From Prochlorococcus marinus XMU1404 (GTDB taxonomy: Bacteria; Cyanobacteriota; Cyanobacteriia; PCC-6307; Cyanobiaceae), in contig NZ_JAAORE010000002.1 of NCBI RefSeq assembly GCF_017696175.1, positions 310,001 through 374,000 on the forward strand: a stretch of 64,000 bases of DNA, given 5' to 3'. The notes beneath the pieces are model-generated. The model ran no database searches. It was given only the letters and a program-made list of their open reading frames with translations, and was not told where the DNA came from. Positions 37,471-44,109 of this stretch are shown here, in pieces; position 1 is the stretch's first letter, and each line of letters begins with the position of its first letter. The position numbers and the translations under genes are program-made.

Positions 37471-37725
37471 ATGATTATGAATTTTATTTTTTCTTTTTTA
37501 TTAGCATCTGTTATGTGGGTACAAGTTCCACAGTGGGAAGCTGACTGGTCAAAATGTGCTGTAGATGTTCCTGATTCATCATGTCACTGGTACGTAGCTG
37601 CTCCCGATAATACGTTTGGGGAAGGATTTAATTGGGAAAACGCTCCTTGGTTTGATGCTAATGGATTACAGGATGTAGCTAAGATTGAGAAAGAATCTGT
37701 AGTAGAAAAACTTCAAAATAACTAA
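37471..37725 (+). CDS. secreted or anchored hypothetical protein
   Basis: 84 residues: short hydrophobic N-terminus (about 3-16), then a Trp- and Asp-rich region (VPQWEADWSKCAVDVPDSSC; WENAPWFDANG) with two Cys that could pair. It looks extracytoplasmic. Family not recognised. Confidence 0.6.
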   Translation: MIMNFIFSFLLASVMWVQVPQWEADWSKCAVDVPDSSCHWYVAAPDNTFGEGFNWENAPWFDANGLQDVAKIEKESVVEKLQNN

Positions 37726-37955: not shown

Positions 37956-38741
37956 TTATTTGCGAAGTTTAGGAATCAAAAGAGATGCGACACAAATAAC
38001 ACTAATTGCAGGCCCAGGCGACAAATTAAAAACTATAGAGAGAAAAAAGCCCAGAAGTGAGATGCATAATCCAAAAAATGAAGATCTCATCATTGCAATT
38101 CTTAAACTATGAGCCTTATTTAGCCCTAACAGAGTTGGGGTAGAAAGAAGAGCAATAACAAGAATTACTCCCACTGCCGACATTGAACTAACAATTACTA
38201 ATGCAGTTGTAAAACTCAAAGCAAGATTTAATAAAGAAACGTTTATACCACTGGCGGATGCACCTTCTGGATCTAATCCCACATAAACAACCTTTTCATA
38301 TCCAAAAGTCATTAAAAGTATAAATACTAAAAAAGCAATTATTGTTCTAAGCAAATCTCCAAAATTTGCTGTCAATAAGTCGCCAAATAATACTGCTTCC
38401 AAATCAATCCTTATTCCGAGTAGAGGGATAATTAGGACTCCAAACCCAAGCATTCCAGCGAGAATAGTATTCATAACTGCTTCATAATTTTCACTTTTTC
38501 TATTAGTTAAACTTTCCGCAATTACAGAACCTAAAAGACCGCTGATAACACCACCAATTGAGGGGTGAATGCCAACCGCTAAGGCTAAAGCAAGTCCAGG
38601 CAAAACACAATGAGAGATTAAATTAACTTGTAATAATCTCTTATGAGTGATTAATACAGTTCCCATTGCTGGACATAAGATCCCTGAGAAAATAGTTATT
38701 ATTAATGGGACAAGCCACCAGTTGTTATTAATAAAAGACAT
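37956..38741 (-). CDS. znuB: zinc ABC transporter permease
   Basis: 261 residues, ABC-3 family with about eight helices. The start (WWLVPLIITIFSGILCPAMGTVLI) and the GISSHCVLPG-like NLISHCVLPGLALA segment are typical of ZnuB/MntB. Zinc rather than manganese is inferred from the zur, znuC and znuA genes around it. It diverges from zur with 17 bp between starts, so one regulatory region must serve both. Confidence 0.9.
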   Translation of the reverse strand: MSFINNNWWLVPLIITIFSGILCPAMGTVLITHKRLLQVNLISHCVLPGLALALAVGIHPSIGGVISGLLGSVIAESLTNRKSENYEAVMNTILAGMLGFGVLIIPLLGIRIDLEAVLFGDLLTANFGDLLRTIIAFLVFILLMTFGYEKVVYVGLDPEGASASGINVSLLNLALSFTTALVIVSSMSAVGVILVIALLSTPTLLGLNKAHSLRIAMMRSSFFGLCISLLGFFLSIVFNLSPGPAISVICVASLLIPKLRK

Positions 38742-38758
38742 TATTCGAATGATTCGGT

Positions 38759-39193
38759 ATGATCAAAAATACGGGACAAAAAAAGATTTCGGAAACAATG
38801 GTAACTAAGTCTGACATTACCAAAAGACAAGAACAACTTCTTGAAGAACTTAATAAATGCGAGGATGAATTGAGTGGTCAAGAGTTGCATAGACAATTGA
38901 TAGAAAGCGGAAAGGCTATGGGACTGACGACTGTTTACAGGAATCTTCAAGCTCTGATAAAGCATGGCTTAATACGTTCTAGACATCTCCCAACAGGAGA
39001 GGTTCTCTACACTCCCGTAGATAGAGATATTCATCATTTGACCTGTGTTCAATGTGGTGAGACATCAAAAATGGAAGGATGCCCGGTAAAAGATATTCAG
39101 ACACCCAAAACAAACCCAAAGCAATTCCAATTGTTGTTTCATACCCTCGAATATTTCGGGCTTTGCCAAAACTGTTATCAAGCTCAGAATTAA
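38759..39193 (+). CDS. zur: Fur-family zinc uptake regulator
   Basis: 144 residues, or 131 from ATG 38798, which leaves more room for an operator. The winged helix is LTTVYRNLQALIKHGLI (about 55-71). Metal-site residues are the HHLTCVQCG (C-x2-C) and the final GLCQNCYQ (C-x2-C) structural zinc pairs. It lies between znuC and znuB in the opposite direction, so Zur rather than Fur is the likely identity. Confidence 0.88.
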   Translation: MIKNTGQKKISETMVTKSDITKRQEQLLEELNKCEDELSGQELHRQLIESGKAMGLTTVYRNLQALIKHGLIRSRHLPTGEVLYTPVDRDIHHLTCVQCGETSKMEGCPVKDIQTPKTNPKQFQLLFHTLEYFGLCQNCYQAQN

Positions 39194-39206: not shown

Positions 39207-39977
39207 CTAATTACAGAAATTATTTTTCTTTATAGAGCTAATGTTTATTGCATCTAATTTATCTTTTATTAGATCAGGACTACCAACTGCCAAAACACTT
39301 TTATCAAGAACTATTACTTGATCATAGTTATTTAAAGACTCGCCCCAATCATGGCTACTTACAAGCAAAGAAAGTCCCGCATCCGCAAGTTGCCGAACAA
39401 TTTTCAGAAAATCCTCTTTTGCGGGGGGATCCAATGCCGCACAAGGTTCATCAAGAAGAAATATTTTTGCAGGGGACATCAGAGTTTTTGCTAATAGAGC
39501 TCTTTGTTGCTGTCCTCCTGAAAGAGAATCGAGTCTTCTATTAGCCAAATTTGCAATGCCTACTCTTTGCAATGTCGCCTCTAATTCACAACATTTATTA
39601 ATCCAAGAATTTGGATATGCCAGAAGAGTCTTAATTTGAAAGGGGTTATTACTTCTTGATTTTGAATACTTAATTTGACCAAGAGATACCAATTTTTCAA
39701 CTGTAATGGGAAACTTCCAATTCATAGAACTTCTTTGAGGCATAAGTGCCACTAAAGCTCTAGATCTATATAAATTTTCACCGTCAATTTTTATTTCGCC
39801 TTTATCTGGAGTATTTTGTCCTTGCAATATTCTCAAAAGAGTGGATTTACCAGCACCGTTTGGGCCAACTAACGCTGTTAGAGTCCCAGGTTTAATCTCA
39901 ACCGATACCTTATTTAAAACTGGCTTACTTTTTTTTGTGTATGCAAAGGTTAAATTTTCAGCGACTAAAGTAGCCAT
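39207..39977 (-). CDS. znuC: zinc ABC transporter ATP-binding protein
   Basis: 256 residues with Walker A GPNGAGKST (38-46), signature LSGGQQQRALLAK (about 153-165), Walker B IFLLDEPCAALD and H-loop SSHDW. Manganese-type relatives exist; zinc is assigned by the neighbours. It diverges from znuA with a shared 135-bp control region containing a palindromic Zur-like box. Confidence 0.92.
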   Translation of the reverse strand: MATLVAENLTFAYTKKSKPVLNKVSVEIKPGTLTALVGPNGAGKSTLLRILQGQNTPDKGEIKIDGENLYRSRALVALMPQRSSMNWKFPITVEKLVSLGQIKYSKSRSNNPFQIKTLLAYPNSWINKCCELEATLQRVGIANLANRRLDSLSGGQQQRALLAKTLMSPAKIFLLDEPCAALDPPAKEDFLKIVRQLADAGLSLLVSSHDWGESLNNYDQVIVLDKSVLAVGSPDLIKDKLDAINISSIKKNNFCN

Positions 39978-40075: not shown

Positions 40076-40092
40076 AAAATGATTATCATTTT
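40076..40092. promoter_or_regulatory. putative Zur box between znuC and znuA
   Basis: AAAATGAT-T-ATCATTTT is a perfect 17-bp palindrome with the TGAT(A/T)ATCA core of Zur/Fur boxes. It lies 21 bp before the znuA ATG and can also repress divergent znuC. Confidence 0.75.
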
Positions 40093-40112: not shown

Positions 40113-41630
40113 ATGTCAATTTTTAAAAGACTTTTATCAAATAAAACAGGTTCAAGTAAGTCAATTATTAAAACTTCCGTAATCGCTGGAACGATTATAT
40201 TTTCTGGTTTTGGGCAGGATGTCATGGCTAAAGGGAAGTCATACGTAGCAGTAGAACCACTAGTTTGTGATTTAGTTAAATCAATTGCATTACCATCTGA
40301 CGAAGTTACATGCTTAGTAGATAGAAAACAGGATGTTCATGACTTAAAGATCAATCCAAGGCAAGCTCAATTACTAAATAGCGCAGACAAAGTATTTACT
40401 CTTGGGAAAGAAATGACTCCAAGTATGAGAAATTGGGAAAATAAAAAGGATACTGTTGTTGTAGGTGTTAGTGCAATAGACGTAGATGATCATTCTGATC
40501 ATGGCGGTCAAGATGACCACTCAGACCATGGTGGACATGACGATCATGCTGAACATTCAGCCAAGGTAGATGATCATTCTGATCATGGTGGACATGATGA
40601 TCATGCTGAGGGTGCTTTCGAATGGGCAGGTAAATTCCAACTTTCTAAGGGTTCTTACAAATGGTCATTTGAAAAAGTCGATGGCGAATATGCAGATCCT
40701 GCAATGAAGATGGTGATTCTCAAATCAAATGATATAGAAGGGTCTGAAGATTTAGCTAAAGAATTATTAGGATCTAAAGACTCAATAAGCAGAAAAAATA
40801 ATGGTACTTTGATTGCAAGTAATAAAGCTTTTGTTCTTAACTTTGATCAAAGAAAAGAAAGCACTGTTTTTAATGTGGATATCAAAGAAGATGGTGAATA
40901 TATATTTTTTACTGAACACATGCCTTTTGAGTTTGAAGCAACTCAACACTTCTTTAAAGACGTTTTAAATAGTGATGTCGAGCCAATAGCACAAGTACCA
41001 GATGAAGGAGAGGGGCATCATCACCATCATGACCATGGAGGTCTAGATCCACATGTATGGCATGATCCACATAACATCATAAAAATGGGAGATGTTATAA
41101 GCAAAAGTTTAAAGAAAGATATTTCAGTTTTTAATAGAGGGGACAGAAAATTAATTAATGAAAGATTCGAAAAAGCTGATTCAATCTTAGAAGGCTTAGA
41201 TCGTTGGATCGTCGAACAAGTAAGCTCTATTCCTGAGGAAAACAGAGTAATTGTTTCTAAACACAAAGCAATGGAATACTACGGTGATGCTTTTGGTTTT
41301 GAAACTATTAGTTTACTTGACTTTCTTGGAGACTCCTCAAGCTTAAGACCAGATAACATAAGTTCTACTTTGAAAATGTTAGATGAAGAGAAAGTTCAGG
41401 CAATATTTCCTGAACAGATTCCAGCATCTAAGTTATTAAGAAACTTAAGTAGGCAAAGTTCGGTCCCTTTAGCTTCTAATCAAATATTCGTTGATGGATT
41501 GATGATGGACGGGAATACGGTTTCAGTAGCTGTTCACAACACTTGCACAATTGTTGATTCATTAGGAGGAAGTTGTGATAAAGAATCTGGCTCCAATCTT
41601 GAGTCTGAATGGTACAAACTTTCAGATTAA
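40113..41630 (+). CDS. znuA: zinc ABC transporter substrate-binding protein with an inserted domain
   Basis: 505 residues, about 200 longer than a usual ZnuA. N-terminal signal-like helix (about 23-39), then the binding-protein fold (YVAVEPLVCDLVKSIA). A His/Asp-rich loop (about 126-167) with repeated DHSDHGGHDDH follows. A domain of about 115 residues (FEWAGKFQLSKG to FTEHMPFEFEATQHFF, 169-281) is inserted before a second HHHHHDH stretch and LDPHVWHDP. The insert matches one in the GTPase downstream. Periplasmic zinc capture. Confidence 0.9.
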   Translation: MSIFKRLLSNKTGSSKSIIKTSVIAGTIIFSGFGQDVMAKGKSYVAVEPLVCDLVKSIALPSDEVTCLVDRKQDVHDLKINPRQAQLLNSADKVFTLGKEMTPSMRNWENKKDTVVVGVSAIDVDDHSDHGGQDDHSDHGGHDDHAEHSAKVDDHSDHGGHDDHAEGAFEWAGKFQLSKGSYKWSFEKVDGEYADPAMKMVILKSNDIEGSEDLAKELLGSKDSISRKNNGTLIASNKAFVLNFDQRKESTVFNVDIKEDGEYIFFTEHMPFEFEATQHFFKDVLNSDVEPIAQVPDEGEGHHHHHDHGGLDPHVWHDPHNIIKMGDVISKSLKKDISVFNRGDRKLINERFEKADSILEGLDRWIVEQVSSIPEENRVIVSKHKAMEYYGDAFGFETISLLDFLGDSSSLRPDNISSTLKMLDEEKVQAIFPEQIPASKLLRNLSRQSSVPLASNQIFVDGLMMDGNTVSVAVHNTCTIVDSLGGSCDKESGSNLESEWYKLSD

Positions 41631-41642
41631 ATTTTTCCATTA

Positions 41643-41659
41643 AAAACGGTTATCATTGC
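41643..41659. promoter_or_regulatory. putative degenerate Zur box upstream of the COG0523 gene
   Basis: AAAACGGTTATCATTGC matches the znuA palindrome at 13 of 17 positions. It lies 49 bp before the GTPase ATG, in the 77-bp gap after znuA. Confidence 0.5.
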
Positions 41660-41707
41660 CAATTTTTACTATTATTAAACTATTATTTATTTTGTAAAAA
41701 TTAGTAA

Positions 41708-43063
41708 ATGAGCATCAAAGATAGAGTTCCCGTAACAATCCTCACTGGATTCCTTGGTTCAGGGAAAACGACTCTTCTTAATAGAATATTAAGTGAAGAG
41801 CACGGGAAAAGAATAGCCGTAATTGAGAATGAATACGGAGAAGTGGGTATAGATCAAGGGCTCGTAATTAATGCCGATGAAGAAGTATTTGAGATGTCAA
41901 ATGGGTGCATTTGTTGTACTGTTCGGGGAGATTTAATAAGAGTCCTTGGCAACCTTATGAAAAGAAGAGATAAGTTTGACTATGTTTTAGTAGAAACCAC
42001 AGGATTAGCAGATCCAGGCCCAGTTGCTCAGACTTTTTTCATGGATGAAGAAATCAGTTCCGAATTTACTCTCGATGGAATTGTGACTTTAGTTGATGCT
42101 GCACATATTGATCAGCAATTAGGAAGAAGTGATGAAAGTGCAGAACAAGTTGCGTTTGCAGATGTTCTTGTCCTAAATAAAACTGATTTAGTTTCTGATG
42201 ATGCTCTAGATACTCTTGAATCGAGATTGAGAGATATGAACCGAATGACTCGAATCATTCGAGCCGAGAATGCCCAAGTACCCATCGAAACAGTCCTAAA
42301 TCTAAGTGCATTTGATCTCGATCAAATCCTTAAACGCAGACCAACATTTCTTGAACCAGAATATCCTTTTGAATGGACAGGTGTTTACGACCTTGCTGCA
42401 GGTAAATATGAATTAATGCTAGAAGAAGGTCCCGATCCAGAAATGTCATTAGTAGCTTTCGCTAATCAAGGTGAGAGTGAAGAAGAACTTAAAGATGGTG
42501 CTGAATCCTGCGTAAGACTTTATGCAGAAAAAGCTAAAAGCTTAGAACCTGGGAATATTATTCCATTTGGAGAACATATAAACCTTAAATTGGAGGATAA
42601 AGGAAATAAATCCTTCATCCTGAACATAGAAAAGCCTACAAAAATAGGTTTGTTTACACAGCACACCGCTGAAGAATTCAATATGAAAATCATTAAAAGT
42701 GAAGACAATAATTCAAAAGAGATCCCATTTAATATTGAAAGATTCTGGCAAGCCGAGCACGAGCACGATGATGAAGTAACGTCAATTGCAATTGAACGAT
42801 TTGGAGATGTTGATCCAGAAAAACTTAATACTTGGTTGGGCAGACTTCTTTCTGAAAAAGGGGTGGATATATTTAGAACTAAAGGTTTCATTAGCTACTC
42901 AGGGAACCCACAGAGAATAGTTTTCCAAGGGGTGCATATGTTATTTACAGCACAACCTGATAAAGAATGGGGTAACGAACCCCGTAGAAACCAACTTGTT
43001 TTTATAGGTAGGAATTTGGACGAGAAAGAGATGCGAGAAGGTTTTGAAAAATGCCTGATATAG
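41708..43063 (+). CDS. COG0523 (CobW-type) GTPase with inserted domain, putative zinc metallochaperone
   Basis: 451 residues. Walker A GFLGSGKTT (14-22), the metal motif CICC (67-70), ETTGLADP (96-103), and NKTD (157-160) define a G3E/COG0523 GTPase. Between the GTPase and the CobW_C domain (about 345-451) sits a domain of about 110 residues (FEWTGVYDLAAGKYELML to GLFTQHTAEEFNM, 221-327) that aligns with the insert in ZnuA. Probable role: GTP-dependent delivery of zinc to client proteins when zinc is scarce. The stop overlaps the WD40 start. Confidence 0.88.
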   Translation: MSIKDRVPVTILTGFLGSGKTTLLNRILSEEHGKRIAVIENEYGEVGIDQGLVINADEEVFEMSNGCICCTVRGDLIRVLGNLMKRRDKFDYVLVETTGLADPGPVAQTFFMDEEISSEFTLDGIVTLVDAAHIDQQLGRSDESAEQVAFADVLVLNKTDLVSDDALDTLESRLRDMNRMTRIIRAENAQVPIETVLNLSAFDLDQILKRRPTFLEPEYPFEWTGVYDLAAGKYELMLEEGPDPEMSLVAFANQGESEEELKDGAESCVRLYAEKAKSLEPGNIIPFGEHINLKLEDKGNKSFILNIEKPTKIGLFTQHTAEEFNMKIIKSEDNNSKEIPFNIERFWQAEHEHDDEVTSIAIERFGDVDPEKLNTWLGRLLSEKGVDIFRTKGFISYSGNPQRIVFQGVHMLFTAQPDKEWGNEPRRNQLVFIGRNLDEKEMREGFEKCLI

Positions 43064-44109
43064 AATCATTTAGCCCAAGAGGTATGTTCCACGAGGGATG
43101 GACAGCTGAAGTTAATGATTATGCCATAGTTTGTGGTTGGGCTATTAAAGGAAAGTTATTCATTGTTGGGGATGTAGCAGGAGGTATTTTTGCCTTTGAA
43201 GGAGATACTGGGAAAATTATTTGGAAAAAAGAAAATACACACTCTGCTGGTCTATTAGCAATGTCCATTCATCCAGAAGGAGAGATTTTTGCAACTTCCG
43301 GTCAAGATGGAAATATTCAAATATATAATTGCCACGAAGGTAAAGTAATTAAAACTCTCGATCTTGGCAAGGCTTGGGTGGAGCATCTTAAGTGGTCAAA
43401 TGATGGCTTATTTCTTGCAGCAGCTTCTTCAAAAAAAGTATATGTTTTTAATGAAATTGGTGAAGAGAAATGGACCTCAGAAGAACATCCAAGCACAGTA
43501 AGTGCAATAAAATGGTCAAATAATAATGAGCTAGCTACAGCATGCTATGGGAGAGTGACATTCTTTGACATATTAAATAATAAAACGAATCAAAAGCTCG
43601 AGTGGCAAGGATCATTAGTCTCAATGGAATTAAGTCCTGATGGTGATATAGTCGCTTGCGGGAGTCAAGACAATTCAGTTCATTTTTGGAGAAGATCAAC
43701 AGGAATGGATGCTGAAATGACAGGATACCCAGGAAAACCTAGTCACCTTTCTTTTGATGACAGTGGAAAATTACTGGCAACTAGTGGCAGTGAAAGAATT
43801 ACAGTGTGGAGCTTTATAGGTGACGGTCCCGAGGGAACTATGCCGGGAGAGCTATGGCACCATACCGAACCTATTTCTAGCCTAGCCTTTTCAAATAAAG
43901 GCATGCTTGTAGCTTCCGGATCTAGAGATGGTTCTGTTGTCGCAAGTTTTCTAAAAAAAGACGGTAATGGAGATCCTGTTGGGGCTGCATTCGCAGGCGA
44001 TTTAGTGGGTGCACTTTCGTGGAGACCTGATGATTGTGCACTAGCTGCAGTTAACGCAAAAGGTGTGGTAAATGTTTGGAAATTTAAAGTTCGTACTAAT
44101 TCTTTTTGA
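43051..44109 (+). CDS. WD40-repeat beta-propeller protein
   Basis: 352 residues with about seven WD40-like blades, e.g. SIHPEGEIFATSGQDGNIQIYN, ELSPDGDIVACGSQDNSVHFWR and AFSNKGMLVASGSRDGSVVASF (S-x-D/G-S-V/I-x-x-W endings). Its first codons overlap the GTPase end by 13 bp, so the two are translationally coupled. It has no signal peptide, so it is a cytoplasmic scaffold probably partnering the GTPase or one of its clients. Confidence 0.85.
   Translation: MPDIESFSPRGMFHEGWTAEVNDYAIVCGWAIKGKLFIVGDVAGGIFAFEGDTGKIIWKKENTHSAGLLAMSIHPEGEIFATSGQDGNIQIYNCHEGKVIKTLDLGKAWVEHLKWSNDGLFLAAASSKKVYVFNEIGEEKWTSEEHPSTVSAIKWSNNNELATACYGRVTFFDILNNKTNQKLEWQGSLVSMELSPDGDIVACGSQDNSVHFWRRSTGMDAEMTGYPGKPSHLSFDDSGKLLATSGSERITVWSFIGDGPEGTMPGELWHHTEPISSLAFSNKGMLVASGSRDGSVVASFLKKDGNGDPVGAAFAGDLVGALSWRPDDCALAAVNAKGVVNVWKFKVRTNSF

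Follow-up and report, generated by a model that had tools for sequence, protein, structure and literature searches.

In the stretch of 64,000 nucleotides of the Prochlorococcus marinus XMU1404 genome (1.67 Mb) analysed here, called the window below (contig NZ_JAAORE010000002.1, positions 310,001 to 374,000), two adjacent genes carry homologous inserts. One is znuA (505 amino acids; 40113..41630, forward strand), coding for the substrate-binding protein of a zinc ATP-binding cassette (ABC) transporter, and the other codes for a COG0523 (CobW-like, G3E) GTPase (451 amino acids; 41708..43063, forward strand). Judging by the structure models, the inserts are two forms of a single small beta-sandwich domain of about 130 residues. 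The domain is not special to this pair of genes: the search for further copies that an earlier note on this DNA had proposed recovered it in host proteins of at least five kinds, from both bacteria and archaea. It is apparently a new family, with a probably known kind of function, that extends across several metal-handling families.

The shared domain in ZnuA and the GTPase

Both hosts are otherwise ordinary members of their families, as the earlier note had stated. ZnuA matches PF01297 (3.4e-42, 145.2 bits, cut-off 29), with its fold recognised by Pfam as two stretches, the strongest of which covers residues 273-480. The GTPase matches PF02492 (2.4e-61, 206.9 bits) and PF07683 (2.5e-25, 88.6 bits), and the cobW span (residues 8-184) and the CobW_C span (residues 358-450) flank the insert. 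By alignment, profile and model, the domain occupies residues about 167-301 of ZnuA (40611..41015, forward strand), with the motifs FEWAG, YADPxM and FTEHxPxEF. In the GTPase, alignment and model place it at the junction of the G domain and CobW_C, at residues about 219-353 (42362..42766, forward strand), with the motifs PFEWTG, GPDPxM, FTQHxxEEF and a final HEH. The two segments had been located rightly beforehand, but their ends had been set about 20 residues too early, as the domain runs on to a conserved HxH. It ends at about residue 301 of ZnuA, where the next His run starts, and at residues 350-353 (HEH) of the GTPase.

The likeness of the inserts could in principle reflect chance or the convergence of two unrelated segments, and the sole BLASTP similarity between them is indeed short (E 1e-5 over 49 residues). 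We consider this explanation practically negligible in the face of the profile comparisons. A leave-family-out profile, built from 71 non-cyanobacterial GTPase inserts, gave the insert of the window ZnuA a score of 60.2 bits (E 1.2e-14 per 1e6 sequences) and scored at least 58 bits against 15/15 distinct ZnuA-type inserts gathered, compared with a top score of 12.8 bits for 5000 shuffles of the ZnuA insert; the regular expressions used in this comparison missed some divergent copies. Using hhalign, the alignment of the 15 ZnuA-type inserts matched a GTPase-only alignment with a probability of 99.4% (E 8.7e-22 for one comparison), and 30 column-shuffled control alignments reached a maximum of 0.9%. 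The profile and the hhalign controls rule out chance similarity. Each insert, used as a query against 194 genomes of the window's class, also gave weak hits to the other type, located at the gene where that type would be expected. Homology had been the central claim of the earlier note, with profile-profile comparison and structure prediction put forward as checks, and both checks bear it out.

The AlphaFold2 model of the ZnuA insert (145 residues, 42-row alignment) had a predicted local distance difference test (pLDDT) score of 88.5 and a predicted template modelling (pTM) score of 0.82. It shows strands at residues 8-14, 17-24 and 34-41, a helix at 45-56, strands from 61-64 through 98-104 and a last strand at 130-132. 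This model is not fully independent of the other insert, because most rows of its alignment are GTPase inserts. The full-length GTPase was modelled from 39 GTPases and no ZnuA row; the pLDDT of its insert is 80-96 in blocks of ten, with strands at 223-229, 232-238 and 245-252, a helix at 258-272 and strands from 277-279 through 343-346. The predicted order of strands and helix is thus alike in both inserts, a likeness judged by the order of elements. Searches by fold with VIA-align gave a top match with Z 4.7 and a root-mean-square deviation (rmsd) of 3.2 over 86 residues, a Z that is usual even between unrelated sandwiches. The best Z belongs to the human supernatant protein factor, a Sec14-like protein with a GOLD domain, and other beta sandwiches were matched as well; the weak matches include GOLD, carbohydrate-binding and lectin-like domains. 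The resemblance to GOLD and carbohydrate-binding sandwiches is a weak structural one (Z up to 4.7), with no sequence match. In PDB and BFVD, Foldseek yielded no hit with an E of 0.001 or lower, by which a new fold is not established.

In an alignment of 33 domain sequences (locus L133 was left out of the domain list, as its start motif differs), there is no variation at E, W and G in the motif EWxG, at one L, at D and P in DPxM, or at H, E and F in HxxxEF; the HxH at the domain end is conserved at 90% or more. Neither window insert alone has a match in Pfam or NCBIfam. When the 33 members were compared with Pfam, the best hit (E 0.0067) was to DUF7055, an identity that we rejected as the match covers only 33 residues and is under the cut-off (16.6 bits versus 27.6). 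The best hits in NCBIfam (E 0.005, one member) and PHROGs (E 0.066) were no stronger than these values, the domain profile had no match among PDB sequences, and no description of the domain was found in the literature searched. For these four databases and this literature, the claim that the domain is undescribed has held. A phage or mobile element origin was also considered and set aside, with no match in the phage collection and no confirmed relative among the pattern matches in viral contigs.

The GTPase conserves the metal motif GCxCC, present as NGCICC, with G66, C67, C69 and C70 invariant among 39 sequences. The closest PDB match of its model is Escherichia coli YjiA (1nij; Z 16.4, 261 aligned, rmsd 19.7). 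The model also matched Tetrahymena Shulin (6zyx_Y, residues 722-1105; Z 14.2, 285 aligned, rmsd 6.1), and a weak hit of the window GTPase to PF25204 (DAAF9) stayed under the cut-off.

Distribution, hosts and ancestry

Of the 194 genomes of the window's class, 11 have the ZnuA insert (E about 1e-59 or better) and 18 the GTPase insert. With the A3 profile, 34/121 genomes of the window's family were positive; two members of this family, G055 and G187, had no match to the ZnuA or the GTPase insert. The same profile was positive in 3/250 genomes of the class of the Paenibacillus genome (the Bacilli sample; two of the three were known beforehand), in 2/398 of the phylum of the Nitrosomonas genome, and in 6/199, 20/194, 12/199 and 12/201 of the phyla of the planctomycete, verrucomicrobial, acidimicrobial and Ktedonobacter genomes, respectively, each of these samples including a domain-bearing centre genome chosen for it. 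The domain is therefore widespread but sparse.

A scan of a genome collection yielded 261 stretches, 245 of them confirmed, and the results given here rest on the 80 that were kept. The organisms named for them include Poribacteria, Acidobacteriota, Chloroflexota, Planctomycetota, Verrucomicrobiota, Actinomycetota, Pseudomonadota, Cyanobacteriota and Bacillota. GTPases make up 78 of the 80, next to one membrane-type protein of Alicyclobacillus and one cation-efflux protein of Paenibacillus, a share that is biased because the narrow query A2 favours GTPase-type copies. In the four phylum samples (loci L247-L301), all 46 distinct host frames are GTPases.

The remaining hosts are of several kinds. 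Haloarchaeal plasmids code for the domain in zinc-type substrate-binding proteins (ZnuA) and in short lipoprotein-like proteins, and plasmid records also include the Alicyclobacillus protein and GTPases of Pantoea and Paraburkholderia. The Paenibacillus host is a cation diffusion facilitator (CDF) exporter with the Pfam domains Cation_efflux and ZT_dimer. The membrane-type protein of Alicyclobacillus has an HX4DH motif (HSILPDH), which would fit a NiCoT-type transporter; no significant Pfam family was found for L068 or P0002, and L068 also has a long His-rich loop. In the stand-alone lipoprotein-like hosts the domain is most of the protein and is flanked by His, as in the one such copy of the Bacilli sample, with His at both ends. 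On one verrucomicrobial contig, genes for the GTPase, a WD40 protein, ZnuA, znuC and znuB are consecutive, and GTPase and ZnuA each contain the domain, so that the pairing of the window is repeated there.

Some copies deserve separate mention. In Natrinema versiforme a stand-alone domain protein is coded directly past the urease operon (L064:4872-5423), which could mean nickel for some members. A Haloarcula halophila plasmid (L154; record of about 362.3 kb) carries, besides its haloarchaeal ZnuA, a second copy of it that is frame-broken. One GTPase domain fragment with an internal stop lies behind a P-type metal ATPase-like sequence (L176, contig 27 of genome G210), possibly a chimera or pseudogene. 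Genome G181 has a ZnuA frame of 873 amino acids with two identical domain copies 969 bases apart (L214:4727-7345), probably an in-frame tandem duplication of a part of znuA or an assembly error.

In an unrooted domain tree, which is based on short rows (136 columns kept) and has some long branches, the bacterial ZnuA and haloarchaeal copies stand apart from the GTPase, transporter and Bacilli copies (98/97). The window ZnuA insert groups with haloarchaeal and verrucomicrobial ZnuA inserts. This split by host type indicates that the two neighbours in the window hold separately inherited versions, each nearest to its host type. A recent copying of the insert from one neighbour to the other is not supported by the tree.

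Insertion site and possible function

Within the genus, one site of ZnuA shows the His-rich loop only (genome G167), one domain between His-rich stretches (the window) or two domains (G078). Beyond the loop, the G167 and window proteins are identical at 79/122 and 134/192 aligned positions. A tree of the loop-free ZnuA needs two changes, which we read as one gain and one loss, the latter in G167. In the window, aligned to an insert-less ZnuA of the genus, a His/Asp-rich stretch precedes the insert (residues 123-166; 40479..40610, forward strand), and the His-rich HHHHHDHGGL follows it (41016..41045, forward strand), abutting DPHVWHD of the ZnuA fold.

An HxH near the domain end is found in 20/20 ZnuA, 148/152 GTPase and 7/7 other distinct sequences, some of these being partial frames of one gene, as also in the His counts that follow. 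At least four His occur in the 40 residues ahead of the domain in 17/20 ZnuA and 3/7 others, and around or after its end in 20/20 ZnuA and 6/7 others; the corresponding GTPase counts, given below, are low. The domain therefore has a His-rich stretch next to it in ZnuA and in the majority of the other hosts, and takes the place of one in most GTPases. Of 20 COG0523 paralogues at the same loci that lack the insert, 13 have an HxH in the linker of G domain and CobW_C, many within long His runs. What the hosts share is metal handling together with an HxH, and a His-rich stretch that lies at the insertion point or is replaced there by the domain. The known His-rich ZnuA loop and COG0523 His stretches share their place with the domain, beside the ZnuA insert and in the linker of the insert-less paralogues, but the domain differs from them in being folded, conserved and 130 residues long rather than a low-complexity loop, and most domain-GTPases keep HxH alone.

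Both DPxM and xH...EF, with no His loop, are found in 136/161 GTPase copies and 18/18 ZnuA copies, as classed by regular expressions among copies spanning at least 85 profile positions. In the Verrucomicrobiota sample, 18 GTPase copies have a long His-rich loop for DPxM, and all 18 are also without xH...EF, eight of them having CGxHP where it stands. The joint loss of the two motifs is as expected if they form one metal site. Five GTPases were classed as having DPxM and lacking xH...EF, of which at least four (L248, L249, L251 and L282) read TQHxPEEF and are hence ordinary, and L245 and L253 fell outside all classes. The stand-alone L178 of the Bacilli sample was classed as His-loop yet keeps the xH motif, its His being elsewhere in the domain. 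GTPases that gained a His-rich loop in the domain are L254-L270 (Verrucomicrobiota sample) and L177, some with CGxHPLHI for FTEHxPxEF.

Considering the homology, placement and distribution of the domain, its linkage to zinc genes and the Zur-like box, we infer that it is a folded module for metal capture or relay, which supplements His-rich loops or stands in for them. This proposal seems to us the most likely one and to have about an even chance of being right. The earlier note had suggested a zinc- or partner-binding module, which is plausible. The domain, which has been placed repeatedly at sites of metal-handling proteins that contain a His-rich stretch, or frequently do so in related proteins, would form a folded metal site next to the host's own, for zinc here and perhaps for nickel or other ions elsewhere. 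The conserved Asp in the DPxM loop, the His and Glu in FTxHxPxEF and the HxH at the domain end are candidate ligands. The domain would replace or assist a His-rich loop that is disordered, acting outside the membrane in the case of ZnuA and in the cytoplasm in that of the GTPase, and might so raise the local zinc concentration close to the cleft of ZnuA and to the CxCC site of the GTPase. A broader version, in which the domain is a general metal hand-over module, a folded equivalent of the His-rich loop, plugged into bacterial and archaeal importers, exporters, metallochaperone GTPases and free lipoproteins, is offered tentatively and may well not hold; if true, one kind of site would serve to hand metal from protein to protein on either side of the membrane.

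Several observations weigh against metal capture. EWxG, the most conserved motif, is not a metal motif, and the fold search yields just weak matches (Z up to 4.7), spread over many sorts of binding domain. No domain-GTPase (0/152) has at least four His in the 40 residues ahead of the domain and just 17/152 have them around or after its end. The HxH of domain-GTPases may belong to the CobW linker. Of the insert-less paralogues, 7/20 (one a fragment) are without a linker HxH. The G167 ZnuA does without the insert, and the swap to a His loop may be a single event.

The conserved Trp, Tyr, Phe and Gly outweigh classic ligands and could instead form a face that docks to a protein partner or membrane component, with metal bound only by neighbouring His or the host site. 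Such docking is the main rival reading; it is rather unlikely in our estimate, and it keeps some room because most domain-GTPases are without a long His stretch. The VIA-align matches to GOLD, carbohydrate-binding and lectin-like domains would suit it, as would the tie of the GTPase to a WD40 gene. Such a gene lies directly downstream of 73/75 domain-GTPases with at least 600 bases downstream (the misses are L080 and L133; L069, L112 and L142, with no room downstream, were left out) and in 13/14 loci from other genomes (the miss is L220), compared with 0/14 and 0/2 insert-less COG0523 genes of the same loci; these counts are not independent because some loci belong to close relatives or come twice from one genome, and the domain-GTPases form a single subfamily. 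A ZnuA-like frame is present in 30/75 and 6/14 of the domain-GTPase loci. The WD40 neighbours and the ZnuA-like frames are also in keeping with metal capture. Against docking, no WD40 gene was seen at two haloarchaeal ZnuA loci, the features that the hosts were found to have in common are metal handling and HxH, and with hosts that are seemingly exported, cytoplasmic or in the membrane, in archaea and bacteria, no one partner suits all. A single partner common to the window ZnuA and GTPase is unlikely because the former is presumably exported and the latter presumably cytoplasmic.

A structural spacer or stabiliser that sets apart the His-rich stretch or two host domains would agree with an insertion site that is a linker or variable loop, and with a domain absent or doubled within one genus. 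We find it unlikely, since specific motifs are kept across phyla and two domains of life, beyond a spacer's need, and the domain is the bulk of the stand-alone lipoprotein-like proteins. Beta-sandwich folds often bind ligands, and the position of the domain, which separates G domain from CobW_C in the GTPase and in ZnuA lies in the loop ahead of DPHVWHD, might allow it to sense a small molecule or metal complex and to switch uptake or GTPase activity. With a context that points only to metals, we judge such a sensor quite improbable.

Gene neighbourhood and known systems

The zinc context and adjacency of the two genes, also part of the earlier note, are borne out by the gene order of the window. 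The gap between znuA and the GTPase gene is 77 bases, and both are on the forward strand. Upstream lie genes named from sequence and context: znuC (ABC transporter ATPase; 39207..39977, reverse strand), a Fur-family regulator, probably Zur (38759..39193, forward strand), and znuB (ABC transporter permease; 37956..38741, reverse strand). The WD40 gene (PF00400, 102 bits; 43051..44109, forward strand) overlaps the 3' end of the GTPase gene. znuA stands beside znuC and znuB, and the gene order is repeated at related loci such as L210, L212 and L213. A small frame of 84 amino acids (37471-37725) lies near znuB.

Between the divergent znuC and znuA is a perfect 17-base palindrome, AAAATGATTATCATTTT (40076..40092), likely a Zur box, with similar boxes at related loci. 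In cyanobacterial relatives, Zur-like palindromes near AAAATGATnATCATTTT (0-3 mismatches) precede znuA at L210:3819, L212:3558 and L213:3682 and the domain-GTPase at L211:4951, L217:5658, L220:6709 and L225:5268; the consensus was drawn from the window itself, and shuffled windows average 0.45 boxes at 2 mismatches. No box at up to 3 mismatches was found in 11/25 other loci, including the seven domain-GTPase loci of other phyla.

In the excerpts of Haas et al. 2009 (PMC2770081), the prokaryotic members of COG0523 subfamily 5 are described as clustering with genes for WD40 proteins and with znuABC, and several of them as lying behind predicted Zur sites. By its gene context the window GTPase resembles this subfamily, in its WD40 neighbour, znuABC and Zur-like site, and it differs from the subfamily as these excerpts describe it in its folded insert. 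In the parts of PMC9337993 that concern synw0968-0973 of Synechococcus WH8102, the divergent genes znuC and znuA have a Zur box between them, and a pair of uncharacterised genes adjoining znuA is under Zur and zinc control. The likeness to the window, in the box and in the two genes by znuA, is one of gene arrangement alone. The abstract of the same paper states that zinc is scarce in the open ocean.

The comparison with the ZrgA model gave 21.4 bits, well under its cut-off of 185. ZinT is an accessory zinc protein outside the ABC core. ZepA, ZrgA and AztD (PMC6689063, in excerpt) are likewise accessory zinc carriers outside that core, ZepA and AztD being compared with the domain by description only. 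As ZepA is reported absent from Archaea in the excerpts of PMC10957091, we set aside the identity of the domain with ZepA on that description.

The working of ZnuA His loops and COG0523 chaperones is still debated, and the shared domain gives a direct handle on both, with natural strains that have zero, one or two domain copies in ZnuA as ready comparisons. Its recognition would also improve the annotation of proteins now called hypothetical or GTP-binding. In G078, the genome with two domains in ZnuA, two more perfect palindromes lie about 1 kb past the WD40 gene (L213:9097 and 9140).

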